64,000 nucleotides of DNA from Streptomyces albus subsp. albus. Its GTDB lineage: Bacteria; Actinomycetota; Actinomycetes; Streptomycetales; Streptomycetaceae. The stretch covers positions 248,001 to 312,000 of the forward strand of contig NZ_JODR01000002.1 in the NCBI RefSeq assembly GCF_000725885.1, written 5' to 3'. The notes under the pieces were generated by a model, which saw nothing but the letters and a program-made list of their open reading frames with translations, searched no databases and was not told where the DNA came from. Below, piece by piece: positions 44,401 to 60,347 of the stretch (position 1 is its first letter; each line of letters starts with the position of its first letter). The translations under genes and the position numbers were made by a program.

Positions 44401-44673
44401 GACCGGCGGCTGGCGACCGGTGGCCGGTGGGCAGGTGGCTGCCGGTCGGTGGCCGTGTCTGACGACCGGGAAAGGGCCCGCCCCTCCCCGGCCCCCCCGG
44501 GGGGGGTGGGGCTTCGGGTGGGGGACGGGCCCGGCGGCCCCGGGCTGCGGCAGCCGGGGCCGGTCGGGGCCGGCGCTGTGGAAGAGGTGTGCGCCGGCAC
44601 CGTGCGGGGTGCTCCGGGAGCGCCGTGCGAGTGCTCCCGGAGCATCGTGGGCCCCGAGCGAGGGGCCGAGGCG

Positions 44674-45930
44674 TCAGGACGCTTCGCGTTCCGGTATCCG
44701 GGTGCCGTTGGCGAGGGCCGCGGGGTCGAGGCCGAGCGCCGCGGCTGCCGTGGCTCCCACGTCGGCGAGGCTGGCCGCGTCCGGCAGCAGTTCCACGCCC
44801 CGGGCGCCGGGCCGGTGGACGAGCACGGGTACGTATTCGCGGGTGTGGTAGGCGTGGCCGATCGTCGGGTCGTTGCCGTGGTCGCCGGTGACCACGAGCC
44901 GGTCGCCGGGCCGGTCCAGCAGGGCGACCAGCGCGGCGAGGCCGGCGTCGACCTGTTCGAGTATCCGGGCGTACCGTTCGGGGTCCTGCTGGTGGCCCGC
45001 CAGGTCGCTCTCCTGCACGTTGGCGACGACCAGTACGTCGCCGGGGGCGCGGACGGCCTCCAGGGTGTGGTCGAGCACATCCGCGGTGGGCACGGCGGGG
45101 CGGCGTACCGCGGCTTCGCAGGCGAGGATGTCGGCGGCCTTGCCGACGAGTGTCACCGGGATACCGGCCCGCGCCGCCACCTCGGGAAGCTGCCGGGTGT
45201 GGTCGAGCGGGGCGCCCAGGTGCTGCACCTGGAGGCCGCCGTTGCGGTAGAAGCCGCTGGCGGGGGTGTCGAGACCCACCGTGCCGGCGTCGCCGTCGCG
45301 GACGAAACCGGACAGCGGGCCGTCGGCGTGGCCGCCCACTGCGATGACGCGCGCGACGGGCGCCACGGCCCGCACGGTGCGGGCGACGGCGAGGATGCCG
45401 TCGAAGTCCACGTCGTCCAGCCGGGCCGAGGTGTTCCAGTTGATGCCGGGGTCGGCCTCCAGGTTGTCGTGCACCAGCACGCACTCGTCGACGAGGAGCA
45501 GCGGCCTGCCGTCGAGGAGGGCGACGTGGTGGCCGGCGGCGCGCAGGGCCGCGGTGACCTCGTCCAGGTGCTCGGCGAGGCGGGCGACCGTCACCCGGCT
45601 GAAGTCCGCGCCCATCATCGTCTGGTGGCCCGCGAAGGTGTCGGCGCCGGGGTAGCCGAGCGCGGCGCGGCCGGCGGCGACGGGCAGCCGGGTGCTGCGG
45701 GCGAGGTCGGCGTGCGGGTGGACGAGGCCCAGGCCCAGCGCGCCGAGGGCGGGCAGCCGGAGCGGGCGCCCGAACGTCTCGCGGGCGTGGTCGAGGACGT
45801 GGCCGCAGGTGTCGGCCGTGATGTCGCCGGGGCGCAGGGCCCCCGCGTCGGGCATGGCGCCGATGCCGAAGCCGTCGATGACGACGATGACGGTCCGGCC
45901 GCGGCCGGGTGCCGGGTCGCTGGTGGTCAC
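44674..45930 (-). CDS. yhfW: YhfW-like phosphopentomutase family protein
   Basis: A 418-residue alkaline-phosphatase-superfamily protein of the phosphopentomutase type: metal site VIVVIDGFGIGAMPDAG, active-site Thr in DTCGHVLDH, and the C-terminal metal motif TGDHGNDPTIGHAYHTREYVPVLV. It would interconvert ribose 1-phosphate and ribose 5-phosphate or a related phosphosugar. GTG 45930 follows GGGGAGG and overlaps the yhfX stop by four bases. Last gene of the yhf block. The context of eight yhf homologues argues for the YhfW branch, not housekeeping DeoB. Confidence 0.87.
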   Translation of the reverse strand: MTTSDPAPGRGRTVIVVIDGFGIGAMPDAGALRPGDITADTCGHVLDHARETFGRPLRLPALGALGLGLVHPHADLARSTRLPVAAGRAALGYPGADTFAGHQTMMGADFSRVTVARLAEHLDEVTAALRAAGHHVALLDGRPLLLVDECVLVHDNLEADPGINWNTSARLDDVDFDGILAVARTVRAVAPVARVIAVGGHADGPLSGFVRDGDAGTVGLDTPASGFYRNGGLQVQHLGAPLDHTRQLPEVAARAGIPVTLVGKAADILACEAAVRRPAVPTADVLDHTLEAVRAPGDVLVVANVQESDLAGHQQDPERYARILEQVDAGLAALVALLDRPGDRLVVTGDHGNDPTIGHAYHTREYVPVLVHRPGARGVELLPDAASLADVGATAAAALGLDPAALANGTRIPEREAS

Positions 45931-47090
45931 AGTGCCCTCCCCCGCGCGTCGTAGAGGCCGGTCAGCCGGGGCTTCCCGGCGGAGAGGCCGGCGACCACCG
46001 CGACCGTGGAGCGGGTCACGAAGATCTGGGTGCGGAACGCGAGCAGCGCCGTGTCGCCGGCGCGGACGTCCGAGCCCGCCTCGGGGGCCTCCAGCAGGCG
46101 GTAGTAGTCGATGTTCTCGGCGGGTGCGCTCTGCACGGGCAGCCTCAGCCCGGTGCGGGGCAGCAGCGCGGTCTCGATGTGGGAACGCGCGTAGAAGCCA
46201 CCGCCGAAGACCGCCGGCCGGCCGTCGGCGAGGGTGTGGGCGACCTCGGTGACGTATACGTACGCCGGCCGCTCCGGCTGGTCCGGATCGACGGCGTGCA
46301 GCGGCGTGGTGCCGGTCAGCGCGTGGCCCGGCTCGCCGTGGGTGGCGCCCAGCCGGGCGAGCAGCGGCAGGCTGGCGACGGAGGTGGCGCTGGGGGCGCT
46401 GAGCTTGAGGTCCTGGTGCCCGCGGGCGGCGAGCAGATCGCGGGCCTGGCGGGCCAGTTCGAAGTTGGGGGTGGCGGCGGGGGCGCCGGTCCCGGGTTCG
46501 CACAGGACGCAGGGGAAGGCGGTGACCCCGGCCAGGCGGATGCCGGGCAGCCGCTCGGCCTCCTCCGCGAACTTGTCGAGCACGGCGAGGGGGACGCCGC
46601 CCTCCTGGCCGGGGTAGACGGCGCCGGGTGCCCCTTCGAGGCGTACGAGGACGTCCTGGACGAAGCCGAGGCGCTGGGCCGCCTCGGAGACGGCACGGGC
46701 GTTGGCCAGGTCGTAGACGGTGACCGTCTCGGGCCGCCAGGCCAGCAGTTCGGGCAGGGAGCGGTGCGGGATCTGCACCAGGTGGCCGAGGTTGCCGGGG
46801 CGGGCGCCGGCCGCGTGCAGGATGCGGGCCTCGTCGGCGTCGATGGCGGCGAACCGGGGGATGCTGCGGGAAACCGCCTCGATCACCTCGGGGTTGCGGC
46901 CGAACTGCTTGGCGACGAACCACAGCGACAGGCCGAGCCGGTCGGCCTCGGCCGCCAGGAGGGCGGCGTTCCCGGCGACGGCGTCCAGGTCGATGACGTA
47001 GGTGTCGGGCGGGATCTCACCGCGCCGGTGCAGGTCGGCTGCCGCGTCGGCGAGCCCGGGGTTGCGGGCGAGCAGGCTGTCGAGGAACAC
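45927..47090 (-). CDS. yhfX: YhfX-like PLP-dependent alanine racemase-fold protein
   Basis: A 387-residue fold-type III PLP enzyme. The PLP lysine is in LWFVAKQFGRNPEV, where alanine racemases have VKANAYG; barrel strands follow (NLGHLVQIPHRSLPELLAW, VLVRLEGAPGAVYPGQEGG, LAGVTAFPCVLC), then a C-terminal beta domain (DYYRLLEAPEAGSDVRAGDTAL read in pieces). It is the YhfX type; some distant relatives are amino-acid racemases. GTG 47090 follows AAGGAC. It starts one base after yhfS and overlaps yhfW, so the three are coupled. Confidence 0.87.
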   Translation of the reverse strand: MFLDSLLARNPGLADAAADLHRRGEIPPDTYVIDLDAVAGNAALLAAEADRLGLSLWFVAKQFGRNPEVIEAVSRSIPRFAAIDADEARILHAAGARPGNLGHLVQIPHRSLPELLAWRPETVTVYDLANARAVSEAAQRLGFVQDVLVRLEGAPGAVYPGQEGGVPLAVLDKFAEEAERLPGIRLAGVTAFPCVLCEPGTGAPAATPNFELARQARDLLAARGHQDLKLSAPSATSVASLPLLARLGATHGEPGHALTGTTPLHAVDPDQPERPAYVYVTEVAHTLADGRPAVFGGGFYARSHIETALLPRTGLRLPVQSAPAENIDYYRLLEAPEAGSDVRAGDTALLAFRTQIFVTRSTVAVVAGLSAGKPRLTGLYDARGRAL

Positions 47091-47091
47091 G

Positions 47092-48312
47092 TCAGTCCTT
47101 CGTGGGGTCGGAGTGCGCCTCGTCGGCGGCGGGCGCTTCATCGGCGGCGGGCGCTTCGGAGGTGTCGTGCGGGTGGCCGGCGAGGGCGGCCAGGGAGCGG
47201 CGCAGGATGTCGAGGACGAGGTCGGCACCGGCCCGCATGGGGTTGATGCGGACGACCCAGTCGGCCAGCTCGGGTGCGTCGTCCAGGCTGGAGCTGGACA
47301 TGCGGTAGAAGAGCGGCGCGATCTCGTAACGGGAGTTCGACCCCACCGGGTACGGTGCGGCCCCGAAGCGCGCGGCGACGGCGGGCAGCTCGCGGGCCAC
47401 GGGCCGGTCGAGCTGGACGAGCAGGCACCGGTCCTGGGCGTTGGCCACCCGGACGTCGACGACTCCGGGTACCTCGCCGGCGGCCAGGCGTTCGGCGGCC
47501 TCGGCGCCGACGCGGGACTGGAGGGCCCACATCACCGGTACGTGGGTGAGCGCACGCAGCGCATCGAGCGCCTGGTGGCCCTGGACCTGGCCGCCGCCCG
47601 AGTAGTTGTCCTCATGCACGCGGGCGATCAGGTCCCGGGCGCCGACGACGACGCCGACGCCTTCGGGGCCGTGCAGTTTGAACAGCGAGAAGCAGGAGGC
47701 GTCGGCGCCCAGCTCCACGCCGCAGGCGGGGACGCGGAAGACGGCGTAGTTGTCGTCGACGATCGTGCGCACGCCTGCCGCACGGCAGGCGGCCAGCACC
47801 TCGCCCGGGTCGTAGGAGTCGGCGAGGCGCTGCCGGGTGTGCTGCACGTAGGCCCAGCGGAAGCGGCCGGTGGCCAGGGCGGCGCGCAGTTCTTCGGGGT
47901 CGTTGAAGTCGACCTCGACCGTCTCGACGCCGAGGCCGCGCAGGGTCACCGCGGTGGTGCGGTAGACGGGGGCGCGGTGGATGAGCAGCGGGTCGCCCGG
48001 GCCGACGGCGGCGCTCAGCGCGGCACGGATGGCTCCGGTCCCGGCGCCCTGGACGAGGGCGGCGCCCTCGGCGCCGAAGTACTCGGCGAGGACCGCCTCG
48101 ACGCGCGCGGTCGTGTGCGGCCGTCCGGGGCCGGGCACCACTCCGGCATCCGCGGTGAACAGTTCAGGCCCGGTGAAGTGCGCTGCCGTGGCCTCCAGCA
48201 GCCGGAACTGCCGTGCCGCGGCGTCCTCCACCGGGACGGTGGGCAGGGGGTGGGTTTCCGGCAGCGCGGGGGGTGCTGGGGTGGCGGCGGTGGATGCGGC
48301 GGGTGGTGTCAT
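47092..48312 (-). CDS. yhfS: YhfS-like PLP-dependent aminotransferase-fold protein
   Basis: A 406-residue fold-type I PLP enzyme: GAGTGAIRAALSA, IVDDNYAVFRVP, and the PLP lysine in SCFSLFKLHGPEGVGVV. It is the YhfS family, related to cystathionine gamma-lyase or aminotransferases but without a known substrate. The C-terminal 25 residues contain a duplicated APAADE/APAADE segment. It starts one base after the phosphotriesterase-family gene. Confidence 0.86.
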   Translation of the reverse strand: MTPPAASTAATPAPPALPETHPLPTVPVEDAAARQFRLLEATAAHFTGPELFTADAGVVPGPGRPHTTARVEAVLAEYFGAEGAALVQGAGTGAIRAALSAAVGPGDPLLIHRAPVYRTTAVTLRGLGVETVEVDFNDPEELRAALATGRFRWAYVQHTRQRLADSYDPGEVLAACRAAGVRTIVDDNYAVFRVPACGVELGADASCFSLFKLHGPEGVGVVVGARDLIARVHEDNYSGGGQVQGHQALDALRALTHVPVMWALQSRVGAEAAERLAAGEVPGVVDVRVANAQDRCLLVQLDRPVARELPAVAARFGAAPYPVGSNSRYEIAPLFYRMSSSSLDDAPELADWVVRINPMRAGADLVLDILRRSLAALAGHPHDTSEAPAADEAPAADEAHSDPTKD

Positions 48313-48313
48313 C

Positions 48314-49282
48314 TCAGAACTCCTCCGGGCCGGCTCCGGTCAGGAACCGCAGCGGGTTGCGCCGGGTCATCAGGTCGATCAGGTCGTCGTCCACGCCCGC
48401 CGACCGGACGGCGGGGAGGAAGGAGCGGAACAGGTGGCCGTAGCCCTGTCCGCCCTCGGTGAGCAGATAGCCGTGGCGGGAGATGTCGCAGCTGAGCAGC
48501 ACCCGGTCGGCATGTCCGGCCTCCAGCAGCGCCAGCAGCAGCCGCAGCCGCACCTCGTCGCTCTGGTAGCTCTCCTTGCCGACGGTGTCGAAGGCCACGT
48601 ACGCGCCGGCCTCGGCGAGCCGGCGGTGCACGGCCGGTTCCGCGAGGAGGTCCTGGTGTCCGATGCAGAGCCGCTCGGGAGGCAGTCCCTCCGCGGTGAG
48701 CAGATCGAGCTGGGCGAGTCCGCCGTGGCCCAGCTGCGCGTGGGTGGCCACGGACAGTCCGGTGGCGAGCGCCGCGCGGGCGGCGGCCCGCAGGGAGCGG
48801 CTCTCCGGCTCGGTGGGGGTCTCGCCGTGGCTGCCGACCTCGCCCAGCACCCCGGGGCGGATTCCGGTGCCGTCCAGGCCCGCGTCGATCTCCTGGACGA
48901 GGGTGTCGGTGAGCTGCTCGACGCCGGCCCCGTCCAGGTCCGCCGCCGGGTGGAACGGCTCGTAGTACCACCCGGTGGCGGCGACGACGGCGACGCCGCT
49001 CTCCCGTGCGATCCGCGCGAGCGTGTCCGGGTCCCGTCCCATCCCCCGGCAGGTCAGTTCGATGACCAGGCCGAGGCCGAATTCCTCGCGCAGCGCGGCC
49101 AGTTCCCGGGTGACGGCCGGGCCGTGCCGCTGTGCGTCGAGGACCGCCGCCCCGTCGCCCTTGCGGTCCAGGTCGAGGACCAGGTGTTCGTGGGCGAGGG
49201 CGGGGCCGGGCACCGAGCGGGCGGGCAGCGGGCCGGTGACGGTCTGCAGCAGCCGCTCGGTGGGGTGCGGGGTGGTGCTCAT
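48314..49282 (-). CDS. php: Phosphotriesterase homology protein (YhfV/Php)
   Basis: A 322-residue amidohydrolase: metal histidines in LAHEHLVLDLD, bridging residue in VLGEVGSHGE (Glu in place of the carboxylated Lys of true phosphotriesterases, as in E. coli PHP), THAQLGHGG, CIGHQDLL, and metal Asp in LLSCDISRHGYL. All binuclear metal-site residues are present. Likely a lactonase, phosphodiesterase or phosphotriesterase on the pathway's substrate. ATG 49282 follows GGAAGG. Confidence 0.88.
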   Translation of the reverse strand: MSTTPHPTERLLQTVTGPLPARSVPGPALAHEHLVLDLDRKGDGAAVLDAQRHGPAVTRELAALREEFGLGLVIELTCRGMGRDPDTLARIARESGVAVVAATGWYYEPFHPAADLDGAGVEQLTDTLVQEIDAGLDGTGIRPGVLGEVGSHGETPTEPESRSLRAAARAALATGLSVATHAQLGHGGLAQLDLLTAEGLPPERLCIGHQDLLAEPAVHRRLAEAGAYVAFDTVGKESYQSDEVRLRLLLALLEAGHADRVLLSCDISRHGYLLTEGGQGYGHLFRSFLPAVRSAGVDDDLIDLMTRRNPLRFLTGAGPEEF

Positions 49283-49313
49283 GGTGCGGGCCTTCCGGGA
49301 GGGCGGCGCGGCC

Positions 49314-50705
49314 TCAGCCCTTGACGGGGGTGAACAGGTCGAGCCAGTAGAGGATGTTGAGCAGGACGCCACCGACGATCACCGCGGCGGGTGCGGCTGC
49401 CATCCGGACGACGGGGCGGCCCATCGCCTCGTTGAGCAGGTAGAGCCCGCCCACGATGAGGATGCCGAGCCCGGCGCCCATCGCGTTGGCCGCCATCAGC
49501 GAGCCGAACAGGATGGCCAGGTGGAGGCTGTCGGTGATGGCGTTGCGCAGGTGCTCGGAGGAGTCGCGGACGCTGGGCAGCTTGCCGAGGACCTTGCCGA
49601 TGTAGGAGAGGGCCAGGACCTCCACGGCGAAGACGGCGGCGCCGACTATCACGGCCAGGACCGGGTTCGGCATCAGGTAGCCGATGGGGTACACGAGGGT
49701 GAACCCGGCGATGCCGTAGGCGCCGGACGCCAGGGCGGTCGTCGCGATCAGCGGGATGAAGCCGAAGACGCGGTAGAAGTCGACCTGGGCCGCCTCCGAG
49801 ATGTGCCCCTTGGCGATCAGGAAGCTGGTGGCCTCACCGCCGCCGAATATGTGCATCTGCGCCAGCAGACAGACTCCGGCGCCCAGCAGCATGAACAGCG
49901 GCAGATGGCGGCGCAGACGGGCGGCGCTGGCGCTGAACAGCGAGGCCATCGGATCGTCCTCGGGCGCCTCGTCCTGGGTGGAGGCGGCGCTCTCGCCCCG
50001 GGCGGCTGCCTCGGCGCGGTCCGCCTTGCGCTGGGCGAGGTCCTTCCGGACGGCGAGGCCGATGAGCAGCAGGACGCCCACGGCCATGGCCAGCGCGCCG
50101 GCGAACATGTTGGGCCACAGCTTCATCGTCGCCACTACGAGGACGAGTTCGACGACGCCTGCCACCGCTCCCCACTTGCGCCCGAACTGCTTGGTGATGG
50201 CCAGCACCGGGAAGAGCGTGAAGAGGAAGAGGATCGGTGTGGACATCTGCTGCATGGCGGTCAGGAAGTCCACGGGCAGGTCGTGCGCGACCTCGTTGGC
50301 GCCGTTGAGGCCGTAGACGACGACGGCGCCCCAGGCGGCGCCCAGCAGCGGCGCCAGCCACTTCTTGGGCGACAGCAGGCCCAGGATGTCCGTGGGCAGG
50401 AAGACCAGCCACGGGTTGAGGACTCCGGAGGAGAGCGCCATGGGGGCGCCGAGTCCGAAGATGAAGCCGGCGGAGAGCCCGAAGGAGACCGCCGTGGTGG
50501 CCGAGCGGGTCGTCCGGCCCTGGATGAAGTCCAGCATGAACGGGCGCACGCCGTCGTTGAAGACGGCCAGGGCCTTGTGCGAGATGAACGCGGTCACCGC
50601 ACACAGGACGATGACGGTCACCTGCTGCGGCCAGGACAGGTCGAGGCCCGTCCCTGCGGCAAGTTGGGTGCCGGAGGCGCTCACTGCGCTTGCGAGGTCA
50701 CTCAC
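49314..50705 (-). CDS. yhfT: YhfT-like multi-spanning membrane protein
   Basis: A 463-residue membrane protein with about 11 or 12 helices (VTVIVLCAVTAFISHKALAVF, SFGLSAGFIFGLGAPMALSSG, LGAAWGAVVVYGLNGANEVAHDLP read in pieces). A charged cytoplasmic loop of about 40 residues (KADRAEAAARGESAAS) divides it. It is the YhfT family, presumed to be the uptake or export component of the yhf system. No transport family motif beyond that was recognised. 31 bases before php. Confidence 0.87.
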   Translation of the reverse strand: MSDLASAVSASGTQLAAGTGLDLSWPQQVTVIVLCAVTAFISHKALAVFNDGVRPFMLDFIQGRTTRSATTAVSFGLSAGFIFGLGAPMALSSGVLNPWLVFLPTDILGLLSPKKWLAPLLGAAWGAVVVYGLNGANEVAHDLPVDFLTAMQQMSTPILFLFTLFPVLAITKQFGRKWGAVAGVVELVLVVATMKLWPNMFAGALAMAVGVLLLIGLAVRKDLAQRKADRAEAAARGESAASTQDEAPEDDPMASLFSASAARLRRHLPLFMLLGAGVCLLAQMHIFGGGEATSFLIAKGHISEAAQVDFYRVFGFIPLIATTALASGAYGIAGFTLVYPIGYLMPNPVLAVIVGAAVFAVEVLALSYIGKVLGKLPSVRDSSEHLRNAITDSLHLAILFGSLMAANAMGAGLGILIVGGLYLLNEAMGRPVVRMAAAPAAVIVGGVLLNILYWLDLFTPVKG

Positions 50706-50747
50706 GGGGTCGCTCCTTCACGCCCGGGATGTCCGTTCCGAACCCCG

Positions 50748-51104
50748 TCAGGCGCGCGCGGCGACGGCGCGGACGAGGAGGGGGACGACGGAGTCGATCT
50801 GGTCCATGGAGAAGCCGAAGACCTTCTTGCCTTCGGCGAGGAGGGCGGCGGCCTCGTCCTCGGTGGGGACGGAGCGGCCGAAGGTGTGGCAGGCGGACTG
50901 GCCCATGAGTCCGACGAGGACACCGAGGGAGGCGCCGGCGCCGGTGTGGCAGGTGCCGAAGTAGTAGTCGGCCTGGCCGGAGCGCAGCTTCATCGCGGCG
51001 TCCATGTCGCTGGAGACGGCGACGTCGATGCCGTCCAGCCCGAGGGCCTTGACGGCGTTGGCGACCTCGTTCTTGCCGACTCCGCCGGCGAGGATCTTCG
51101 TCAT
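50748..51104 (-). CDS. yhfU: YhfU-like DUF2620 protein
   Basis: A 118-residue DUF2620 protein: MTKILAGGVGKNEVANAVKA, SGQADYYFGTCHTGAGASLG, MDQIDSVVPLLVRAV. It has a PTS-EIIB-like size and fold feel but no catalytic Cys in the first loop. In E. coli it lies next to yhfT, as here, suggesting that the two form one transporter or complex. Confidence 0.86.
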   Translation of the reverse strand: MTKILAGGVGKNEVANAVKALGLDGIDVAVSSDMDAAMKLRSGQADYYFGTCHTGAGASLGVLVGLMGQSACHTFGRSVPTEDEAAALLAEGKKVFGFSMDQIDSVVPLLVRAVAARA

Positions 51105-51226
51105 GGTGGGGTGCCTCTCATCTGTCGTGTGCGGCCGGGCGGGGTGACCCGGCCGGGTGGTCGTCGGGTGCGGCGGTGGGCCGCAGGGGGTGCGGCCGGC
51201 GGGCGGGGCCCGCGGCCGGTGCGGGG

Positions 51227-51601
51227 TCAGCCGTTGACGCGCTGGGCGAGGACGGCCAGGTGCATGGCCAGGAAGTTGATCTCGGATTCGGGCAGTGCGG
51301 CACCGAGTTCGGCCTCGGCGCGTGCGGCGACGCGGCGGGCCCGTTCGACGGCGGCGGGGTGGTCGGCGAGTTCGGCCGCGACCTGATCGTCGGTCAGGAA
51401 CTTCTCGATGGGCTCGCCGTCGAGCAGCCGGGTGAGGGCCATCATCAGATGGCTCGTCAGCATGCCGGCCGTCTCCTCGGTGACGGTTGCGCCCTCGTCG
51501 GCGAGCGCGGCCAGCTCGGCCTCCACGAAGTCGGCCACCTCGGGCCGGACCTGGCCACCCTCGCGGAAGAGCTGGATGCGGAGCGCGAGCTGGTCGTCCA
51601 C
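51227..51601 (-). CDS. yhfY: YhfY-like PRD-domain protein
   Basis: A 124-residue single PRD domain: LRIQLFREGGQVRPEVADFVE, LTSHLMMALTRLLDGEPIEKF and the closing ESEINFLAMHLAVLAQRV with the PRD histidines. PRDs are usually phosphorylated by PTS proteins to control antiterminators, but no RNA-binding or PTS gene is present here. The GTG at 51601 is preceded by AAGGAG at six bases. First gene of the yhfY-U-T-php-S-X-W run. Confidence 0.84.
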   Translation of the reverse strand: MDDQLALRIQLFREGGQVRPEVADFVEAELAALADEGATVTEETAGMLTSHLMMALTRLLDGEPIEKFLTDDQVAAELADHPAAVERARRVAARAEAELGAALPESEINFLAMHLAVLAQRVNG

Positions 51602-51625
51602 GGCATTCTCCTTCAACTTTCGCCC

Positions 51626-51647
51626 AGAACTCGGGATTCTGGATTCT
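51626..51647 (-). promoter_or_regulatory. Putative YhfZ operator upstream of yhfY
   Basis: AGAACTC-G-GGATTCT (51626-51640) resembles the perfect palindrome ahead of yhfZ (5 of 7 in the left arm, 7 of 7 in the right), followed at once by another GGATTCT half-site (51641-51647). It lies 25 bases upstream of the yhfY GTG, where a repressor could block the operon. Confidence 0.6.
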
Positions 51648-51833
51648 CTTGCCGGACTGCGGCCCTGCGCGGCAGGGGCCGTGCACGGCTGAGGCCGCCC
51701 GTCCGGGGCCCACGCCCCGGCGGGTCTTCCGCCGGGGCCCGGGAGGTCCGGCGCCCCTGGCGGCTGCTTTGTGACGCTCCGTCGGCTTCCGGCGGTCCGC
51801 GAGGGGCGGACCGACCGGGGCCGGCGGGGCGGG

Positions 51834-52778
51834 TCAGTAGGAGGGCATACGGTCTCCCCGTATGACCTCGGACTGGAGGGCAGTGACCCGTCCGGGGTCG
51901 ATGGCGTCCTTTATGGCGTGCAGCGCGGCGGCGCTCTCGGCCCGGCCGACGACCGCCGCGCTGGAGTTGCGCAGGGCCAAGTCACGCGTTATCTCGTCGC
52001 CGAGGGGCAGCACGTCCACGCCGTGCCCGATCCGGCCCTGCACCTCGTCGAGGCTCCAGACGGTGGCGTCGGCCTCGCGGTGGACGAGGAGATCGGGCAG
52101 CTGCATGTAGGAGCACTCGATCCACTCGACGTCGTCGCGTCCGCCGAAGGTCAGCTCGGCGAGCATCCGCTGGTCCTCCGAGGCGTGGTCCACGGCGACG
52201 CGCAGGCCGGGCTCCTCCAGCGAGCCGCCCTCGGCCACCAGCACACCGTGGGCTCCGACATAGGTGGCCGGGCCCAGGTCCACCACCAGGGCCAGCTCCT
52301 CGGGGTGCTCCTCGATCAGCCGGTCGGCGGCGTAGCGGGAGAGGACCACCAGATCGGCCTTGCCCTCCAGAAGGGCGGTGACCCGGCTTCCGGCGCCCCG
52401 CATGAAGGTGATGGCGAAGGGGGTGCCGGCCTCCTCGAACGCGGTGCGCAGCCCGGTGGCCAGGCCCTCGTAGCGACGGGAGTAAGGCAGGGGCATGGCG
52501 GCGAGCAGCGTGCCGAGGCCGGAGAGCCGCCACAGCACGGCTCGGTCGGATTTGACGAGGAAGGTGCCCAGATGACCGCGGGCGGCGGTCTCGATGGCGC
52601 CGGCCTCCTCCAGCAGGCGCAGCGCGGCCTGGACGGTGCCGTTTCCGCAGCCCAGCTCCTCGGCGAAGTCCCGCACGCGGGGCAGCCGCGTCTCCGGCTC
52701 GTACTCCAGCAGAAGGAGCGCGAGCTGGCGGGCCGCCAGGCCGTTGCGGGTCAGGAACCGCTCGTCGTAACCGTTCAC
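51834..52778 (-). CDS. yhfZ: YhfZ-like transcriptional regulator
   Basis: A 314-residue protein with an N-terminal winged helix (LPRVRDFAEELGCGNGTVQAALRLLEEAGAIET) and a periplasmic-binding-like C-terminal domain (YEGLATGLRTAFEEAGTPFAITFMRGAG, GKADLVVLSRYAADRLIEEHPEELALVVDLG read in pieces). This is the GntR-like YhfZ family. GTG 52778 lies about eight bases after a -10 box, suggesting a leaderless message; a TTG at 52814 is unlikely because it would put the operator inside the gene. It is the presumed regulator of the whole yhf block. Confidence 0.86.
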   Translation of the reverse strand: MNGYDERFLTRNGLAARQLALLLLEYEPETRLPRVRDFAEELGCGNGTVQAALRLLEEAGAIETAARGHLGTFLVKSDRAVLWRLSGLGTLLAAMPLPYSRRYEGLATGLRTAFEEAGTPFAITFMRGAGSRVTALLEGKADLVVLSRYAADRLIEEHPEELALVVDLGPATYVGAHGVLVAEGGSLEEPGLRVAVDHASEDQRMLAELTFGGRDDVEWIECSYMQLPDLLVHREADATVWSLDEVQGRIGHGVDVLPLGDEITRDLALRNSSAAVVGRAESAAALHAIKDAIDPGRVTALQSEVIRGDRMPSY

Positions 52779-52786
52779 GAAGAAAC

Positions 52787-52814
52787 AGTAAACAGAATCC
52801 TGGATTCTTGACAA
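52787..52814 (-). promoter_or_regulatory. yhfZ promoter with a palindromic operator in its spacer
   Basis: On the minus strand, -35 TTGTCA (52814-52809) and -10 TTTACT (52792-52787) are 16 bp apart. The spacer holds a perfect palindrome AGAATCC-N-GGATTCT (52794-52808). This is a classic autorepressor arrangement. The plus-strand TTGACA at 52808-52813 could contribute to the divergent gene. Confidence 0.7.
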
Positions 52815-52871: not shown

Positions 52872-55800
52872 ATGCGCGGACTTTTCCGGCGCCGATCGGC
52901 TCGGCGCGAGCACCCCCGCCGGGTGCCGCCCGCCTCCGCGCAGTCCTCCGGCCCCTCCTCCTCCGAACAGCGCTCCCCCGCACGCTCCCCGTCCGGGCCC
53001 TCCTCCGACCAGACCACCGACGAGCCCCCTGCTGAGCAGCCCGCTTCCGAGCAGCCCGCCGATCAGCACTCCTCCGGGCCGTCGGGCCCCGGGGCCTCCG
53101 GCTCCGGCTCCGAGCAGTCCGAGGGCTCCCCCGCGGCACCCTCCGGAGCGTCCGGCACCGCGGAGCGGACCGCCCCTCTGCGCGAGCCCTCCCGCTTCCC
53201 GTTCGGAGCCCGGAGCGTCGCCGGGGAGGTGTTCATCCTCCAGGTGGCGGTCATCGTGCTGCTGACCGTCGCGGTGGTGGTCGCCTTCGTGCTGCACGCC
53301 AGGTGGGACAGCGAGCAGCAGGCGCGCAACAAGTCCCTGGCGGTCGCCCAGACCTTCGCCCGGGCCCCTGGCGTCCTCGACGCGCTGGACAGCCGCGACC
53401 CCACCGCGGCGCTCCAGCCGCGCGCCCAGGCGGTCCGCAAGGCCGCCGACGTCAGCTATGTCGTGGTGTGGACACCGGAGGGGAAGCGGATCACCGCGCC
53501 GAAACGGCGGATGATCGGCCAGACCGTCGTGAAGCCCTTCAAGTTCATCGTGGAACGGGCCCGGGAGGGCCGCCCCACCACCCACACCATCGACGCGGTC
53601 ACCGGCGGCGACACCGTCAACACGGCCGTGCCCGTCACCCGGCCGGACGGCTCCCTCGCCGGGCTGGTGTCCGCGGGGGTGACCGTCTCCCGGGTGAACC
53701 AGGGCGTCAAGGACCAGTTGCCCGTACTGCTCATGTCCGCCGCCGGCGCCCTCGTCCTGGCCTCCGTCAGTTCCGCGCTGGTCAGCAGACGGCTCCGCCG
53801 CCAGACGCACGGGCTCGGCCCCGTCCAGATGACCCGGATGTACGAGCACCACGACGCGGTGCTGCACTCCGTCCGCGAAGGGGTGCTCATCCTGGACGCC
53901 GAGGGCCGCCTGGTGCTGGCCAACAGCGAGGCCCGGCGGCTGCTGGAGCTGCCCCCCGAGGCGGAGGGCGAGCAGGTCGGACGGCTCGGCCTGGACGCGG
54001 GCATGGCCGAGCTGCTGACGTCCGGCCGCACCGCCTCCGACGAGGTCCACCTGGCGGGCGGCCGGCTGCTGGCCGTCAACGTCCGCGCCACCCGCGGCGA
54101 GGAGGGCCCGCCCGGACGGGTCGCCACACTGCGGGACACCACCGACCTGCGCGCGCTCGAGGGCCGCGCCGCGGTGAGCCGCGAGCGGCTGCGGCTGCTG
54201 TACGAGGCGGGGGTGCGGGTCGGTACGACACTGGACGTGGTCCGTACGGCCGAGGAACTGGCCGAGGTCGTCGTCCCCGGGTTCGCCGATTTCGCCACCG
54301 TGGAACTGCTGGACCCGGTGCCCCGCGGCGAGGAACCCTCCGGAGCGCGCACCGACATGCGCCGGGTGGCCATGAGCGGCATCCGCGAGGAGCCGCCGCT
54401 GTACCCGGTGGACACCGTCATCCGGACGGTCGCCACCTCCCCCGACGAGGCGGCACGGGAGACCGGCCACCCCGTACTGGTGCCGGACCTGCGGCAGGCG
54501 CACGACTGGCTCGCGGAGAACCCCGAGCGCGGCCGGGCGACCCTCGACTACGGCATCCGCTCCCTGATCAGCGTGCCCCTGCGCGCCCGCGGAGTCGTCC
54601 TGGGGTCCGTCGATTTCTGGCGCACCGAGGAGAGCGAACCCTACGCGGAGGACGATCTGGTCTTCGCCGAGGAACTGGCCGCCAGGGCAGCCGTCAGCGT
54701 CGACAACGCCCGCCGCTACACCAGGGAGAACGCCATGGCGGTCACCCTGCAGCGCAGTCTGCTGCCGCGCGGGCTGCCCGAGCAGGACGCGCTGGAGGTG
54801 GCCTCCCGCTATCTGCCCACCCGGGCCGGGGTCGGCGGTGACTGGTTCGACGTCATCCCGCTGCCCGGCGCACGGGTGGCCCTGGTGGTGGGGGACGTGG
54901 TGGGCCACGGGCTGCACGCCGCGGCCACCATGGGGCGCCTGCGCACAGCAGTGCTCAATTTCTCCTCCCTCGACCTGGCCCCCGAGGACCTGCTGGCCCA
55001 CCTGGACGAACTGGTCGACAGGATCGACCAGGACCAGACGGCCGCCGGCAACGGTGAGGCCGTCACCGGCGCCACCTGCCTGTACGCGATCTACGACTCC
55101 GCCTCGGGCCGCTGCACCGTGGCCCGGGCCGGCCACCTGGGGCCCGCGGTCGTCAACCCGGACGGCACCGTCGACTTCCCCGAGGTCCCCGTGGGGCTCC
55201 CACTGGGGCTCGGCGGCGCCCCCTTCGAGACCGCGGAGCTGCAGCTGGCGGAGGGCAGCAGCCTGGTGCTGTACACCGACGGGCTGGTCGAGGACCGCGA
55301 CCGCGACATCGACGACGGGCTCGCCCAGTTGCACGACGCGCTGGCCGACCACCCCGGGCGGCCCCCCGAGGAGACCTGCGGCGCGGTGCTGGACGCGCTG
55401 CTGCCCGCCGACCCGAGCGACGACGTGGCGCTGCTGGTGGCCCGCACCCGGGTGCTCCCGGCGGACCGGGTCGCCCAGTGGGACGTCCCCGCGGACTCCG
55501 GTGCGGTGGCCCCGCTGCGCGCCCAGGTGACCGGCAAACTGACCGAGTGGGGGCTGGAGGAGGTCGCCTTCACCACCGAGCTGATCCTCAGCGAACTGGT
55601 CACCAACGCCATCCGCTACGGCAGCGAACCCATCCGCGCCCGCCTGCTGTACGAACGTTCCCTCACCTGCGAGGTCTCCGACGGCAACAGCACCTCGCCG
55701 CATCTGCGCCGGGCCGCCGCCACCGAGGAGGGCGGGCGGGGCCTGTTCCTGGTGGCGCAGCTCGCCGAACGCTGGGGCACCCGCTACACCCCGCACGGCA

Positions 55801-55898
55801 AGGTCATGTGGACCGAACAGAGCCTCCATGGCGGCGGCACCCCGCAGGAGGAGGACGAGGAGAGCCTGCTCGACCAGTGGGGCGACGGGGACATGTGA
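52872..55898 (+). CDS. Membrane sensor with PAS, GAF, SpoIIE phosphatase and HATPase domains
   Basis: A 1008-residue regulator. A Ser/Pro/Glu-rich disordered head (1-110) is followed by a membrane helix 119-142, an extracytoplasmic Cache-like domain (150-280: VSYVVVWTPEGKR, VPVTRPDGSLAG), a second helix 285-305, PAS (325-430), GAF (about 450-615), and SpoIIE (625-860: LQRSLLPRGLPEQDAL, GGDWFDV, VGDVVGHGLHAAA, YTDGLVED, SDDVALLV). Last is an anti-sigma-type HATPase (870-990: ELILSELVTNAIRYG, GGRGLFLVAQLAERW). It probably both binds and dephosphorylates in a partner-switching pathway. ATG 52872 follows AAAAGGGG. Divergent from yhfZ. Confidence 0.92.
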   Translation: MRGLFRRRSARREHPRRVPPASAQSSGPSSSEQRSPARSPSGPSSDQTTDEPPAEQPASEQPADQHSSGPSGPGASGSGSEQSEGSPAAPSGASGTAERTAPLREPSRFPFGARSVAGEVFILQVAVIVLLTVAVVVAFVLHARWDSEQQARNKSLAVAQTFARAPGVLDALDSRDPTAALQPRAQAVRKAADVSYVVVWTPEGKRITAPKRRMIGQTVVKPFKFIVERAREGRPTTHTIDAVTGGDTVNTAVPVTRPDGSLAGLVSAGVTVSRVNQGVKDQLPVLLMSAAGALVLASVSSALVSRRLRRQTHGLGPVQMTRMYEHHDAVLHSVREGVLILDAEGRLVLANSEARRLLELPPEAEGEQVGRLGLDAGMAELLTSGRTASDEVHLAGGRLLAVNVRATRGEEGPPGRVATLRDTTDLRALEGRAAVSRERLRLLYEAGVRVGTTLDVVRTAEELAEVVVPGFADFATVELLDPVPRGEEPSGARTDMRRVAMSGIREEPPLYPVDTVIRTVATSPDEAARETGHPVLVPDLRQAHDWLAENPERGRATLDYGIRSLISVPLRARGVVLGSVDFWRTEESEPYAEDDLVFAEELAARAAVSVDNARRYTRENAMAVTLQRSLLPRGLPEQDALEVASRYLPTRAGVGGDWFDVIPLPGARVALVVGDVVGHGLHAAATMGRLRTAVLNFSSLDLAPEDLLAHLDELVDRIDQDQTAAGNGEAVTGATCLYAIYDSASGRCTVARAGHLGPAVVNPDGTVDFPEVPVGLPLGLGGAPFETAELQLAEGSSLVLYTDGLVEDRDRDIDDGLAQLHDALADHPGRPPEETCGAVLDALLPADPSDDVALLVARTRVLPADRVAQWDVPADSGAVAPLRAQVTGKLTEWGLEEVAFTTELILSELVTNAIRYGSEPIRARLLYERSLTCEVSDGNSTSPHLRRAAATEEGGRGLFLVAQLAERWGTRYTPHGKVMWTEQSLHGGGTPQEEDEESLLDQWGDGDM

Positions 55899-56109
55899 GA
55901 GACCGCACGGCGGCGGACGGCCCGCCGGGCGCCCCCGGCGACAGCCGCACCGCACGGAACAGCACACCATGGGCCCCGGCCGTCGCTCCGGCGCCTCCGC
56001 CCGCCGAGCGACGCCCCCTGCACCGAGTGCCTACCTATGCGCCGAGCACGGGCCCGAGACGCCCGCAGGGGCACCCCGCCCGGTGATGGTGCGCAATTCA
56101 GTTCCGGCC

Positions 56110-56540
56110 CGTCCCGCCCCGCCCGCCGCACGGCCCGGAGAAGGCGCAGTGCCGCACAAATGCAGCGCACGTGCGGCACAGATGCCGCACAGGTGCAGCG
56201 CAGATGCCGCACGGTCGCGGCACCCCGGCCCAACGCGGCACCCACACGACGCAGGAGCGGCCGTCATGCGGCACGAACGAGGCACCGATGCGGCACGGAA
56301 GCGGCCTCCCCGCGGCACAAACGCGGCACCCATCCACCGCAGAAACAGCACCCACGCGGCGAAAACACGGCACCTACGCAGCACACAAAAAGCCCCCGCC
56401 CGGCACAAACACGGCACCCACCCAGCACACAAGAAGCCCCTGCAGCACGGATGTGGCACAGATGCGGCACCCATGCCGCAAAACCGCCGCAAAAACGCCG
56501 CACCCATGCGGCACCCTGCGGCACCCGCACCGCTCCCCTG
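56110..56540. repeat. Degenerate GCGGCAC repeats
   Basis: Roughly 30 copies of the word GCGGCAC or GCCGCAC, often as CATGCGGCACC, spaced 12-18 bases. The segment also has A-runs rare elsewhere in the window. Reading frames are open on both strands (Cys/Arg/Ala or Arg/His/Ala-rich) without protein-like features. The rest of 55899-56591 also has no supported gene. Confidence 0.65.
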
Positions 56541-56591
56541 CGGCAGCCCTGCGCCCCGCTCGGTGCGCCCGCGATGGGCGACACTTGGTGC

Positions 56592-58484
56592 ATGGCCAGC
56601 AGCATCCCCGCATCCGAGCCGCAGTCCACCGCACCCGGACCGGGGCCGGCGCCGGAGGGGCCGGAGGAGCGGCAAGCCCGGGTGCCGACGCTGGGCAGTC
56701 TGCTGGCGGCCGGTGCCGGCGAGGCGCTGGAGCTGGTGTGCGCCCCGCGCGGCAGGGACGTTCCGGTGCGCGGGGTGGGCGTTTTCGACTCCGGTGAGAC
56801 GTTCGCCGCACAGGGGCAGGTGCTGGTCGCGGCGGGCGTGGACGACTCCTCGGACGTCGCCCCCATGGTGCTGCGGTCCGCCGCCAGGGCCGGCGCGGTG
56901 GCCGTCGTCACCCGGCGGGGCGCGGGCGGACCGGGCCGGCGGCTGCTGGAGCTCGCCGAGGAGACAGGCACCGCACTGCTCACCAGGGCGCCGTGGATCG
57001 AGTGGACGGAACTGATCGGCATGCTGCGGGCCGCTCTGGCGCACCGGGGCGGGCCCGCGGGTCCGGAGGCGGCCACCGATGTGCCGCTGGGCGACCTGCC
57101 GGCGCTCGCCCGTGCCCTCGCCGAGCTGGTGGGCGGGGCGGTCACGATCGAGGACCCCGACTCCCGGGTGCTGGCCTACTCCCCCACAGAGAACGGCGCC
57201 GACCCGCTGCGCCGGCTCACCATCCTGGGCGGGCAGGTACCCCGCTGGCGGCTGGACGAGCTGGCGGCCAGCGGCTTCCTGCGCACCCTGTGGGCCAGCG
57301 ACGACGTGGTGCACCGGCCCGCGGAGGAACGCTTCTCCGAGCGGCTGGCCATCGCGGTGCGGGCCGGTGAGGAGGTGCTGGGCTCCATCTGGGCGGCTGC
57401 CGACGGCCGTCCCCTGCCGCCGGATGCCCGGCAGGCGCTGCGCGAGGCGGCCCGTACCGCCGCCCCGCATCTGCTGCACCACCGGCTGCGGCACCAGACC
57501 GGTGCCACCCGGCGGCGGCAGGCGGTGCGGGCCCTGCTGGAGGGCGCCGGTGACGCGCGGTCGGCCGCCGCGACGCTCGGTCTCGCCCTGGGCACCCCCT
57601 GTGTCGTCCTGGCCGTCACCACCGACGCCGTCCACGGGGAGGGCACGGCGCACGACCGGGCACTGCGGCTGGCCTCCCTCCAGGTGAGCGCCCACCAGCC
57701 GCCCGGTTTCGCGCTGCGTACCGACGACCGGCTGGACGTGCTGCTGCCGCTGCCCGACGGACGCGAGGAGCGGTCCCACGGCCCCCGTCCGCCGGCGGAC
57801 GCTACGGGCTCCGCGGTGGCCGAGGGGGCCGGGGAGAGCGGGACGGAGGGCACGGCCCCGCAGGCGCGGCGGCTCGCCCTCCAGCTGGCCGCCGCCGTAC
57901 GGGAGGCGGGGGTCGGTCCGCTGGTGGCGATCGGCGCGGCACGGCCCGGGCTGACACGGGCGGGCGAGTCCCGCGAGGTCGCGCATCTGGTCCTCCAGGT
58001 GCTGCGGGATCGCCGGACGCGTGCCGCGCCGGAGGGCCGTACGGCCGCTCCTCCGCCGGACGGCCACCCCGCAGGGCCTCCGCCCAAGGGCGGGCCGGGG
58101 ACCGTCCCGGCGCTGGAGGTCGCCGGCGAGAACGACGTGCGGGAGGCCCTGGACGCGCTGCGGGTCGTGCGGGCGGTGGCCGGGCTGACACCCCGGGTGG
58201 ACGGCCCGGTGCGTGATCTGCTGGCGCACGACGCGGAGCACCGCAGTGATCTGGCGCCCACCCTCGCGGCCTATCTGAGCCGGTTCGGCGACGTGGCGAG
58301 CACCGCGCGGCAACTCGGCGTCCACCCCAACACGCTCCGCTACCGGCTGCGCCGGCTGCGCACCCGTTTCGGGCTGGACCTGGACGACCCCGATGTACGG
58401 CTGCTGGCGGAGCTGGGGCTGCGCGCGGCGGGCCTGTACCCGGCGCCGGGCGGCGGCCCCTCCCGTCCCGCGGAGCCTTTCTGA
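56592..58484 (+). CDS. PucR-family transcriptional regulator
   Basis: A 630-residue PucR/CdaR-type regulator. The N-terminal PucR sensor (VPTLGSLLAAGAGEALELVCAP, PVRGVGVFDSGETF, AVAVVTRRGAGGPGRRLLELAEETG read in pieces) leads to a central region with GAF-like strands and the C-terminal helix-turn-helix YLSRFGDVASTARQLGVHPNTLRYRLRRL. A Gly/Pro-rich linker precedes the C-terminal part. ATG 56592 fits; ATG 56574 is possible. It stands ahead of a PLP decarboxylase and an amino-acid permease, its likely targets. Confidence 0.88.
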   Translation: MASSIPASEPQSTAPGPGPAPEGPEERQARVPTLGSLLAAGAGEALELVCAPRGRDVPVRGVGVFDSGETFAAQGQVLVAAGVDDSSDVAPMVLRSAARAGAVAVVTRRGAGGPGRRLLELAEETGTALLTRAPWIEWTELIGMLRAALAHRGGPAGPEAATDVPLGDLPALARALAELVGGAVTIEDPDSRVLAYSPTENGADPLRRLTILGGQVPRWRLDELAASGFLRTLWASDDVVHRPAEERFSERLAIAVRAGEEVLGSIWAAADGRPLPPDARQALREAARTAAPHLLHHRLRHQTGATRRRQAVRALLEGAGDARSAAATLGLALGTPCVVLAVTTDAVHGEGTAHDRALRLASLQVSAHQPPGFALRTDDRLDVLLPLPDGREERSHGPRPPADATGSAVAEGAGESGTEGTAPQARRLALQLAAAVREAGVGPLVAIGAARPGLTRAGESREVAHLVLQVLRDRRTRAAPEGRTAAPPPDGHPAGPPPKGGPGTVPALEVAGENDVREALDALRVVRAVAGLTPRVDGPVRDLLAHDAEHRSDLAPTLAAYLSRFGDVASTARQLGVHPNTLRYRLRRLRTRFGLDLDDPDVRLLAELGLRAAGLYPAPGGGPSRPAEPF

Positions 58485-58745
58485 ACGGCTCCGCACACCG
58501 TCGGTGGCCGACAGGAACGAGCGCGGCGAGGACGTTGTGCGTCCGCACCACGGGATGCCGCCCGCCATGGTGCGGGACGACAACACCGGGCGGCCGGCCC
58601 GCACGGTGTTGTGGGCGCGCACACCGCACAGGCCGCGACTTCGGACCGCCGGCCGCAGACACGGACCGCCACCACGACGCAGAGTGGACGGGATCTGCAC
58701 GGGGTGCGCGCAGGTGACGGCACCGCACGGGAAGGGAGTCCGCGG

Positions 58746-60131
58746 ATGGCACTGGACGCTGTGGCACGGAGACGGGAAGCGATCGCCGCAGCGGTCCGTG
58801 AGGGGCTGCTCGGCCCCGAGGCGCCGCTCGTGGCCCTGCTGGACGTCGAGGGCATCCGGCAGGCCGCCCGGGAGCTCCGGGACGCCTTCGCGGGCCCGGC
58901 GCCCGTGCTGCACACCTTCGCCGTGAAGGCGGCGTCGCTGGTGCCCGTGCTGGAGCTGCTGGACGCCGAGGGCGTCGGCTGCGAGGTGGCCAGCCCGGGC
59001 GAGCTGGAGCTGGCCAGGGCGGCGGGCGTGGCGGCCGACCGGATCGTCTTCGACTCCCCCGCCAAGACGGTCGCCGAGCTGCGGGACGCGCTGGCGAGCG
59101 GGATCGCCGTCAACGCGGACAATCCGCAGGAGCTGGCGCGGCTCGACGCGCTGGTCGCCGAGCGGCGCTCGGCCGGGCAGGACGCCGGGGCGCCCGTGGG
59201 CATGCGGATCAATCCGCAGGTGGGCACCGGTTCCATCGGCGCGATGAGCACCGCGACAGCGACCTCGAAGTTCGGGGTGGCGCTGCGCGACGAGGGCGCC
59301 GAGGAGTGGATCACCGACAGTTTCGCGGCCCGGCCCTGGCTGACGCGGCTGCACACCCACACGGGCTCGCAGGGCGTGCCGCTGGAGCTGATGGCCGAGT
59401 CGGTACGGGTCGTCCACGAGCTGGCCGAGCGGATCAACCAGCGGGCCGGGCGGCAGCAGATCGACACCATCGACATCGGCGGCGGCCTGCCGGTGAACTT
59501 CGCCGGCGACGAGACCGAGCCGTCGTTCGCCGCCTACGCCGACCTGCTGCGACGGTCGGTGCCGGGACTCTTCGACGGGCGCTATACGATCGTCACCGAG
59601 TTCGGCAGGTCCCTGCTCGCCAAGCAGGGCTTCGTCGCCGCTCTGGTGGAGTACACCAAGAGCGCGGGCGGTCGCCGGATCGCCGTCACCCACGCCGGTG
59701 CCCATGTGGCCACCCGTACCGCGTTCGCGCCCGAGGCGTGGCCGCTGCGGGTCGGCGCCTTCGACGCGGAGGGCGCGCCCAAGCGGACGCCGGAAGTGGT
59801 GCAGGATGTAGCGGGGCCGTGTTGCTTCGCCGGGGACCTGGTGGCGCGCGAGAGGGCACTGCCCGAACTGGAGCCGGGAGACGTGGTGGCACTGTGGGAC
59901 ACAGGCGCCTACTACTTCTCCACGCCGTTCCAGTACAACAGCCTGCCCCGTCCGGCCGTGCACGGTTTCGGACGGGACGCTGCCGGCCGCGTCCGCTTCT
60001 CGCTGGTGCGGCCGGCGCAGCGGATGGAGGAGCTGCTGGCGGACAGCGGCGCCGCACAGCGCGGTGCCCTGACCGGCACGGCCGGTGCGGCCGGCGGGCC
60101 GGGCCGCCCGGTCTCCTCCGCCGCGTCCTGA
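58746..60131 (+). CDS. PLP-dependent decarboxylase (DAP/ornithine decarboxylase fold)
   Basis: A 461-residue fold-type III enzyme: PLP lysine in TFAVKAASLVPVL, HTHTGSQGVPLELM, glycine loop IDIGGGLPVNF, TEFGRSLLAKQGF and the active-site cysteine block GPCCFAGDLVARE. It resembles diaminopimelate decarboxylase but the substrate loop differs, and it is not in a lysine operon, so a catabolic decarboxylase of another amino acid is likely. The C-terminal 30 residues are Gly/Ala-rich. GGGAAGGGAG precedes ATG 58746. Confidence 0.85.
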   Translation: MALDAVARRREAIAAAVREGLLGPEAPLVALLDVEGIRQAARELRDAFAGPAPVLHTFAVKAASLVPVLELLDAEGVGCEVASPGELELARAAGVAADRIVFDSPAKTVAELRDALASGIAVNADNPQELARLDALVAERRSAGQDAGAPVGMRINPQVGTGSIGAMSTATATSKFGVALRDEGAEEWITDSFAARPWLTRLHTHTGSQGVPLELMAESVRVVHELAERINQRAGRQQIDTIDIGGGLPVNFAGDETEPSFAAYADLLRRSVPGLFDGRYTIVTEFGRSLLAKQGFVAALVEYTKSAGGRRIAVTHAGAHVATRTAFAPEAWPLRVGAFDAEGAPKRTPEVVQDVAGPCCFAGDLVARERALPELEPGDVVALWDTGAYYFSTPFQYNSLPRPAVHGFGRDAAGRVRFSLVRPAQRMEELLADSGAAQRGALTGTAGAAGGPGRPVSSAAS

Positions 60132-60210
60132 CCTGTCGGGTGTCCGGCTCCCGGGTCCGCCCGGGTCCGCCGCCGGGTCGCCCCGGCTCCGAGCCGTTCG
60201 GGGCCGGTCA

Positions 60211-60235
60211 GCCGTCCTGAGCGTCTCAGGACGGC
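60211..60235 (+). terminator. Hairpin between decarboxylase and permease genes
   Basis: Perfect 11-bp stem, arms 60211-60221 and 60225-60235, three-base loop. It lies 80 bases after the decarboxylase stop and may end or reduce read-through to the permease. Confidence 0.6.
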
Positions 60236-60347
60236 CGGTCACGGTTCGCCGTGCCCGGCACCCTGCCCTGTCCATCAGGCACACACTGGTGCGCCCCTGT
60301 GGCGTGCCAGGACTCCGGTGTGCCCCGATCCACGGAGACCCAGACGC

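Follow-up and report, generated by a model that had tools for sequence, protein, structure and literature searches.

What the eight yhf genes achieve together is the question raised by a 64,000-nucleotide stretch of the Streptomyces albus subsp. albus genome (contig NZ_JODR01000002.1, positions 248,001 to 312,000; this whole stretch is called here the window), where all eight yhf families lie on the minus strand as one block (44674–52778) in the order Z, Y, U, T, V, S, X, W. The answer proposed here, and held with about even confidence, is that the block would be a catabolic operon for an imported sugar conjugate of an amino acid or amino sugar. This reading is favoured because the gene order is kept at different chromosomal sites, a putative operator is shared, residues of YhfV, YhfS, YhfX and YhfW are conserved, YhfU is predicted to adopt the RpiB fold (with weak sequence support), YhfX recurs in sister operons, the operons of the SFCGS protein follow a similar plan, and one Chloroflexota genome (G636) links its cluster to the phosphotransferase system (PTS). 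A search of one literature library for yhf, DUF2620 (the family of YhfU) and SFCGS found no functional study.

The eight-gene block and its order

A preliminary description of the window had claimed a complete yhf set on one strand, and both the coordinates and a profile search bore this out: every protein fell into its expected family, with Pfam calls judged against curated cut-offs and all eight above them (bits/cut-off given hereafter). The block opens with yhfZ (51834–52778), encoding a GntR-type regulator with a YhfZ C-terminal domain (YhfZ_C, 210/35; solved relative 2ozz), followed by yhfY (51227–51601), encoding a single-PRD protein (the general family PRD, 31.7/23), yhfU (50748–51104; DUF2620, 144.6/25) and yhfT (49314–50705), whose multi-helix product is presumably a membrane protein and the presumed importer (YhfT, 514.6/26.1). 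The enzymes come next: php/yhfV (48314–49282) encodes a metallohydrolase of the general PTE family (210/22.4), with E. coli PHP (4lef/1bf6) as nearest solved relative; yhfS (47092–48312), a fold-type I pyridoxal phosphate (PLP) enzyme (YhfS-like_C, 141.7/27; 4j8l); yhfX (45927–47090), a fold-type III, alanine-racemase-like PLP enzyme (YhfX-like_C, 87.4/27; Ala_racemase_N, 60.7 bits; 4kbx); and yhfW (44674–45930), a phosphopentomutase-like protein of the alkaline phosphatase superfamily (the general family Metalloenzyme, 113.6/24.3). The NCBIfam equivalog models YhfZ_full (340.3/260) and PRK12383 (456.3/254), the latter for yhfW in E. coli, were passed by YhfZ and YhfW.

The last four genes are as tightly packed as had been described, with gaps of one base between V and S and between S and X, and an overlap of four bases between X and W. 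Directly 3' of yhfW, on the same strand, a stem-loop with a 12-bp stem (44610–44644) is likely a transcription terminator; the 91-nt stretch has a minimum free energy of -48.5 kcal/mol (z -3.0). Spacing, end hairpin and the shared putative operator described below would be compatible with co-transcription. Rfam at gathering thresholds gave no match within the window.

The order of the block was compared in one profile scan of species genomes, anchored on YhfT and biased to Streptomyces, which yielded 127 relatives, 78 loci being retained for the comparison; throughout, "absent" means absent from the stretch read around a locus. ZYUTVSXW dominates (55 loci), followed by ZYXWVUTS (six), UTVSXW (four), two loci each of ZYUTV, ZYUTVSX, YUTVSX and ZYXVUT, and five other orders once each; among the 17 loci with neither main order, ten have a contig end within 400 bases. 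The repetition of ZYUTVSXW in 55/78 loci excludes a chance origin of the order. These 55 include Actinomadura (L071) and the Chloroflexota species Thermosporothrix (L068), and three more complete ZYUTVSXW loci come from other actinobacterial families. The fusobacterium Cetobacterium has the window order with an amidase-like gene inserted between T and V, so that the order recurs in two other phyla (Chloroflexota and, with one gene added, Fusobacteria). The insert in Cetobacterium somerae (L082, 11294–12325) scores below the Pfam Amidase cut-off and had no match in any other plasmid record.

ZYXWVUTS, in turn, was met solely in enterobacterial loci. The E. coli K-12 operon (yhfZYXW-php-yhfUTS) shares with the window all eight families, one strand and the regulator in first place, and differs in gene order, as had been noted before; its V, W, X and S proteins are 38–48 % identical to those of the window, U 33 % and T 42 %. 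Because ZYUTVSXW spans phyla and ZYXWVUTS was met in enterobacterial loci alone, parsimony makes the E. coli order probably the derived one. The earlier idea of a gene set surviving reordering has to be turned round, since the window order is the widespread one.

Within Streptomyces the yhf set is a patchy accessory operon, not a rare one: YhfT scores above cut-off in 26/199 Streptomyces genomes, and in 2/296 sampled genomes of the phylum, the window's own included. Public records already use the name "YhfT family protein". Comparison of 45 Streptomyces loci with long flanks showed that the block occupies two or more chromosomal sites. At the first (26/45), the flanks hold at least one of SRP54/ffh, rpsP (S16), rimM, trmD, glnD or an accompanying 199-residue conserved gene; a second set of neighbours is common to seven loci, among them the window, and 12 fit neither set. 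ZYUTVSXW is found in 24/26 loci of the first site, in all six second-site loci besides the window and in 10/12 of the others, the four deviating loci having genes missing or an extra T. Streptomyces varsoviensis has a second, divergent YhfT (54 % identity) between yhfZ and yhfY (L040, 7708–9045). That the proteins act together, as the preliminary description held, is well supported, because one order prevails in 55/78 loci, is kept at different sites and comes with a shared operator.

Not every gene is equally constant. In stretches that run on beyond the block, Yersinia locus L080 is without S and W, the second cluster of that genome being Y, X, W, U, T; Vibrio halioticoli is without S, Chloroflexota clusters L114, L115 and L117 without W, Streptomyces L057, L058 and L062 without W, and L020, L057 and L062 without Z, while in Streptomyces purpureus (L060) the block ends after V. 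In Yersinia artesiana (L110, L111), one genome holds two differing yhf-type clusters, of which one reads Z Y X V U T and the other Y X W U T. Conversely, U lies directly before T in 78/78 loci, in a scan anchored on T, and L060 is the sole locus of the 78 where X is missing with room to spare, so that T, U and X appear from these gene contents to be the most constant members.

A putative operator and the link to the phosphotransferase system

A dyad, AGAATCCnGGATTCT, precedes both yhfZ and yhfY. The first putative YhfZ operator (AGAATCCAGGATTCT, 52794–52808) stands 30 bases before the yhfZ start, the second (AGAATCCCGAGTTCT, 51626–51640) before yhfY. At up to three mismatches, the dyad was found before yhfZ in 61/64 loci and before yhfY in 47/64, as compared with 0/64 before yhfU and 22/1280 randomly drawn 160-base segments of the same loci. 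The 7.6 Mb genome holds five matches at up to two mismatches: the sole exact one lies before yhfZ, and that before yhfY is one of four places with two mismatches. The other three, considered as further YhfZ sites, look like chance; the reversed pattern, used as control, had no match in this genome. From the conservation of the site, YhfZ is best read as a regulator that would control itself and the yhfY–W unit, and little else.

YhfY may connect the block to the PTS. The first PRD histidine, H51 in YhfY, is invariant in 15/15 proteins (13 YhfY and two from SFCGS operons), and YhfY is presumed to be a target of PTS phosphorylation. In the Chloroflexota genome G636, genes for Enzyme I, HPr and a PRD protein lie inside the yhf cluster (L116, 704–12975), and no second HPr was found in that genome, which has two Enzyme I genes. 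Besides these, the cluster contains a pair of YhfS genes, an SDR and a class-III aminotransferase, and its YhfX is split into two frames. HPr is present in 8/8 Chloroflexota genomes with YhfT above cut-off vs 56/143 others (p 0.0008); among these others, YhfT is matched below cut-off in three. The association is weak because six of the eight genomes look like close relatives. In a published Lactobacillus rhamnosus comparison (PMC7513527), DUF2620, YhfX, PTE-related and PRD proteins are included, and nearly consecutive accessions are given for RpoN and a PRD/NtrC regulator.

Other genes near yhf blocks may be mentioned here. On a Vibrio halioticoli plasmid (L083, 3196–7271), the stretch just upstream of the yhf block holds lactose/cellobiose-type PTS IIB, IIC and IIA genes together with a DUF7916 gene and a porin gene. 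Within 52872–61856 of the window, the gene divergent to yhfZ is that for a 1008-residue sensor phosphatase (sCache, GAF, SpoIIE), and beyond it are those for a PucR-type regulator, a PLP enzyme of ornithine/diaminopimelate/arginine decarboxylase type and an amino-acid permease.

The proteins and their relatives in other operons

The preliminary description had called YhfT and YhfU transporter-like, which fits YhfT only in so far as it is multi-helical and has no known fold, and has to be amended for YhfU. The YhfT model (predicted local distance difference test, pLDDT, 84.9) consists mostly of long helices, and a fold search gave no known fold and no match of weight. YhfU is predicted to be an RpiB-fold protein, and the idea of a plain transporter subunit was set aside as unproven after the fold search. 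The RpiB reading rests on VIA-align, which matched the model to the RpiB fold with weaker IIB matches, and on a cysteine loop; in the ranking by Foldseek alone, which includes several alpha/beta folds, RpiB (E 3e-3) comes second to a B12-binding mutase domain (E 9e-4). Cys52 is invariant in 27/27 proteins, with T or S two residues on and a glycine loop; the part that Cys and Thr play in RpiB is described in PMC4783025. Predicted fold and cysteine-Thr/Ser-glycine loop are thus common to YhfU and RpiB/LacAB, whereas YhfU is shorter (the window protein has 118 residues, E. coli RpiB 149).

At the level of sequence, the direct comparison of YhfU with E. coli RpiB stayed short of significance (score 18.6, best of 20 shuffles 17.6). 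When deeper profiles were used the score was 27.5, while none of 50 column shuffles exceeded 22.3, and the hhalign probability was 25 %. A YhfU profile of 27 rows, one of them an SFCGS protein, reached RpiB in the PDB at E 0.01 after 22 top rows of TAL-effector repeats, which were read as an artefact, no single stretch passing. As a separate observation, the three yhfT-bearing Chloroflexota genomes (G296, G624, G633) in a sample of 61 gave no RpiB match, 41/61 having one; this is possibly chance or relatedness.

The four enzymes retain the residues expected of their families. H31, H33, E148, H181, H209 and D266 of YhfV, which we take to be metal ligands, are invariant in nine proteins; the match of YhfV to the phospho-furanose lactonase model is weak (49 bits, cut-off 630), and a substrate-profile study of E. 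coli PHP has reportedly been made by the Raushel laboratory. K212 and D186 of YhfS, presumably the PLP lysine and aspartate, are invariant in eight proteins, as is K61 of YhfX, presumably its PLP lysine, in 13. The solved chains closest to the YhfX profile, YhfX itself excepted, belong to D-threonine and D-3-hydroxyaspartate aldolases (E 1e-6 to 3e-5), which hints that YhfX may act on D- or beta-hydroxy-amino acids. YhfW shares T98, D19, D309, H313, D350, H351 and H362 with E. coli DeoB, and we assume T98 to be the nucleophile and the others metal ligands. The two proteins are 28 % identical and diverge in the middle of the alignment, and in Thermosporothrix YhfW a Ser replaces the Thr at the nucleophile position.

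YhfX is also found outside yhf blocks. At six alphaproteobacterial plasmid loci it lies among genes for a ROK regulator, an M20 hydrolase (absent from the yhf plan), a sugar-type binding protein, a permease and an ATPase; in Ruegeria, the M20 protein resembles ArgE/DapE and the binding protein comes, weakly, closest to allose and rhizopine types, every score being below cut-off. In Embleya, an amino-acid permease gene stands before YhfX, and a ROK kinase-like and an SIS gene come after it. YhfX occurs in 20/394 Actinomycetes genomes, and ten loci were read, all with a PTE-family hydrolase near YhfX. Four of these are of yhf type, namely three complete eight-gene sets and one Y U T V S X; another two are mixed, with V, U, Y, W, X, S, SIS and ABC genes and no T seen, YhfT not being found within the 16 kb read in L192 and L193. 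The remaining four combine a ROK regulator, a ROK kinase, a sugar ATP-binding cassette (ABC) importer, YhfX and the PTE-family hydrolase, three of them with an SIS enzyme as well. The operons of this last type thus share YhfX and the hydrolase with yhf, and differ in that ABC importer, ROK kinase and SIS replace T, U, Y, Z, S and W. The PTE, ROK, SIS, binding-protein and GntR assignments were profile-checked on chosen proteins.

The SIS proteins near YhfX are nearest NagB-II/GlmS, like glucosamine-6-phosphate deaminase, though all below cut-offs; Amadori deglycases of the fructoselysine type (FrlB) were considered for them and discarded, NagB-II and GlmS models scoring far higher. A tree of 24 YhfX proteins separates the yhf type from a single group (support 0.98) that holds the proteins of all other operons, also of the mixed ones. 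Broadly, the importers, ROK kinases, SIS and PTE proteins around YhfX favour the breakdown, controlled through a PRD protein, of an amino-acid or amino-sugar conjugate.

A different operon is built to a similar plan. It encodes a PRD-like protein, SFCGS/EF_0830, DUF4312, DUF4311, DUF4310, amidohydrolase EF_0837, a DgaE-type PLP lyase and a DgaF-type KDGP aldolase, so that, like yhf, it combines a PRD-like protein, an RpiB-like small protein, proteins without assigned role, a metallohydrolase, a PLP enzyme and a sugar-phosphate enzyme. Examples lie at L130 (2761–8493) and L131 (7264–12779), and the SFCGS protein is present in 55/119 genomes sampled from the family of Superficieibacter electus (G298). 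In contrast to yhf, no YhfX, YhfW or YhfZ was seen in the stretch read, DUF4312/4311/4310 stand in place of YhfT, to which DUF4310/4311 have no detectable relation, and an aldolase in place of the mutase. The SFCGS protein scores 21 bits against the RpiB model TIGR02133 (cut-off 168). Its PRD-like companion has no Pfam match in L130, and that family matches YhfY by profile comparison alone (probability 92 %).

Weighing the proposed function

As a catabolic operon, the block would work as follows. YhfZ, acting as a repressor, would bind AGAATCCnGGATTCT before yhfZ and yhfY and leave on ligand entry, as the conserved site leads one to expect, while YhfY would report the phosphorylation state of the PTS. 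YhfT would import the conjugate, and PHP-type YhfV, given its conserved residues, may open an ester, lactone or amide link. The amino-acid part could then be taken by YhfX (racemisation or retro-aldol cleavage) and YhfS (a lyase or transaminase step), as their families allow. On a pentose-type sugar, YhfW, with its DeoB-like residues, might move or remove phosphate, and YhfU might bind or enolise the resulting sugar phosphate through its reactive-cysteine loop, if the fold is as predicted. The uptake and breakdown of an amino-acid/sugar conjugate suggested in the preliminary description fits the newly seen neighbours of YhfX.

Several observations weigh against this proposal. The best NCBIfam model of YhfV, PRK09875 (php), is matched below its cut-off (213.8 bits vs 486), and no PTE-family hydrolase was seen beside YhfX in Embleya or at the six alphaproteobacterial loci. 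The yhf block lacks the kinase and SIS enzymes found in its sister operons, so that the substrates of the two may differ. Unlike RpiB/LacAB, YhfU has no histidine invariant or nearly so among 27 proteins, the commonest occurring in 18/27 and being Gln in the window; RpiB-type isomerase activity is doubtful for this reason (compare His99 of E. coli RpiB), and a Coccidioides RpiB-fold protein is also without the catalytic histidine (PMC3212906). Finally, for each of Z, V, S, X and W there are clusters that lack it, so that one eight-part pathway is not general and a claim that all eight always act together would be too strong.

Among other explanations, the substrate might be an (N-acyl) amino-sugar acid handled in the manner of the dga and SFCGS systems, with V as deacylase, S as ammonia-lyase, the product entering sugar-acid breakdown, and YhfW as phosphatase instead of pentomutase. 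The common plan with the DgaE/DgaF-type operon and the deaminase-like SIS proteins near YhfX speak for it, although KDGP aldolase and DgaE-type models found no match among the eight yhf proteins, YhfS belongs to a different fold-I subfamily, YhfW retains the DeoB residues, YhfT is not detectably related to DUF4310/4311, and the tie between YhfY and the SFCGS-side PRD-like family, without a Pfam match in L130, comes from profile comparison alone; we judge it rather unlikely. A new phosphorylating, PTS-like permease made of YhfT and YhfU, in which Cys52 would relay PTS phosphate to the sugar carried by YhfT, is distinctly unlikely in our estimation, even with U directly before T in every T-anchored locus, an invariant cysteine in a glycine loop, a PRD gene usually near, Enzyme I and HPr inside the G636 cluster, and the HPr association among the Chloroflexota (8/8 vs 56/143, p 0.0008), in which six of eight genomes look closely related.

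A lower probability still is assigned to detoxification or repair, that is, clearance of a damaged metabolite made in the cell, for instance the phosphate of a sugar-acid lactone or an adduct of a D-amino acid. DeoB-like and RpiB-like parts would suit pentose phosphates and the PTE family includes phospho-furanose lactonases (the YhfV match being the weak one given above), but uptake operons are usually recognised by a dedicated membrane protein, as YhfT is presumed to be, and by a regulator that has an operator of its own, and importer genes stand beside YhfX at the six loci of Alphaproteobacteria, at the four ABC-type loci of Actinomycetes and in Embleya. A natural-product cluster might also come to mind, given a phosphomutase-like protein and a pair of PLP enzymes in Streptomyces; this is very improbable, as the block or most of it is present in E. 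coli, Vibrio, Cetobacterium and Chloroflexota, and 26/45 Streptomyces loci are flanked by at least one of ffh, rpsP, rimM, trmD, glnD or the 199-residue conserved gene.

Beyond the catabolic operon itself, a wider reading is possible, though on the doubtful side: DUF2620 (YhfU) and SFCGS may be one unrecognised RpiB-derived family with dedicated membrane proteins and PRD-type regulators, forming a new class of modules, linked to the PTS, that take up and process sugar/amino-acid conjugates. A degenerate sugar-phosphate isomerase would there be the importer's cytoplasmic partner, and yhf would be one branch, with an undescribed route through YhfV, YhfX, YhfS and YhfW. New or corrected here are the RpiB-fold reading of YhfU and the occurrence of YhfX in other operons with sugar importers, whose kinase and SIS enzymes point to amino-sugar-like substrates. 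For the yhf genes of E. coli K-12, still annotated as putative or uncharacterised, the putative operator usable as a reporter, the list of genes that may be missing and the predicted fold of YhfU may serve as handles for finding the substrate.

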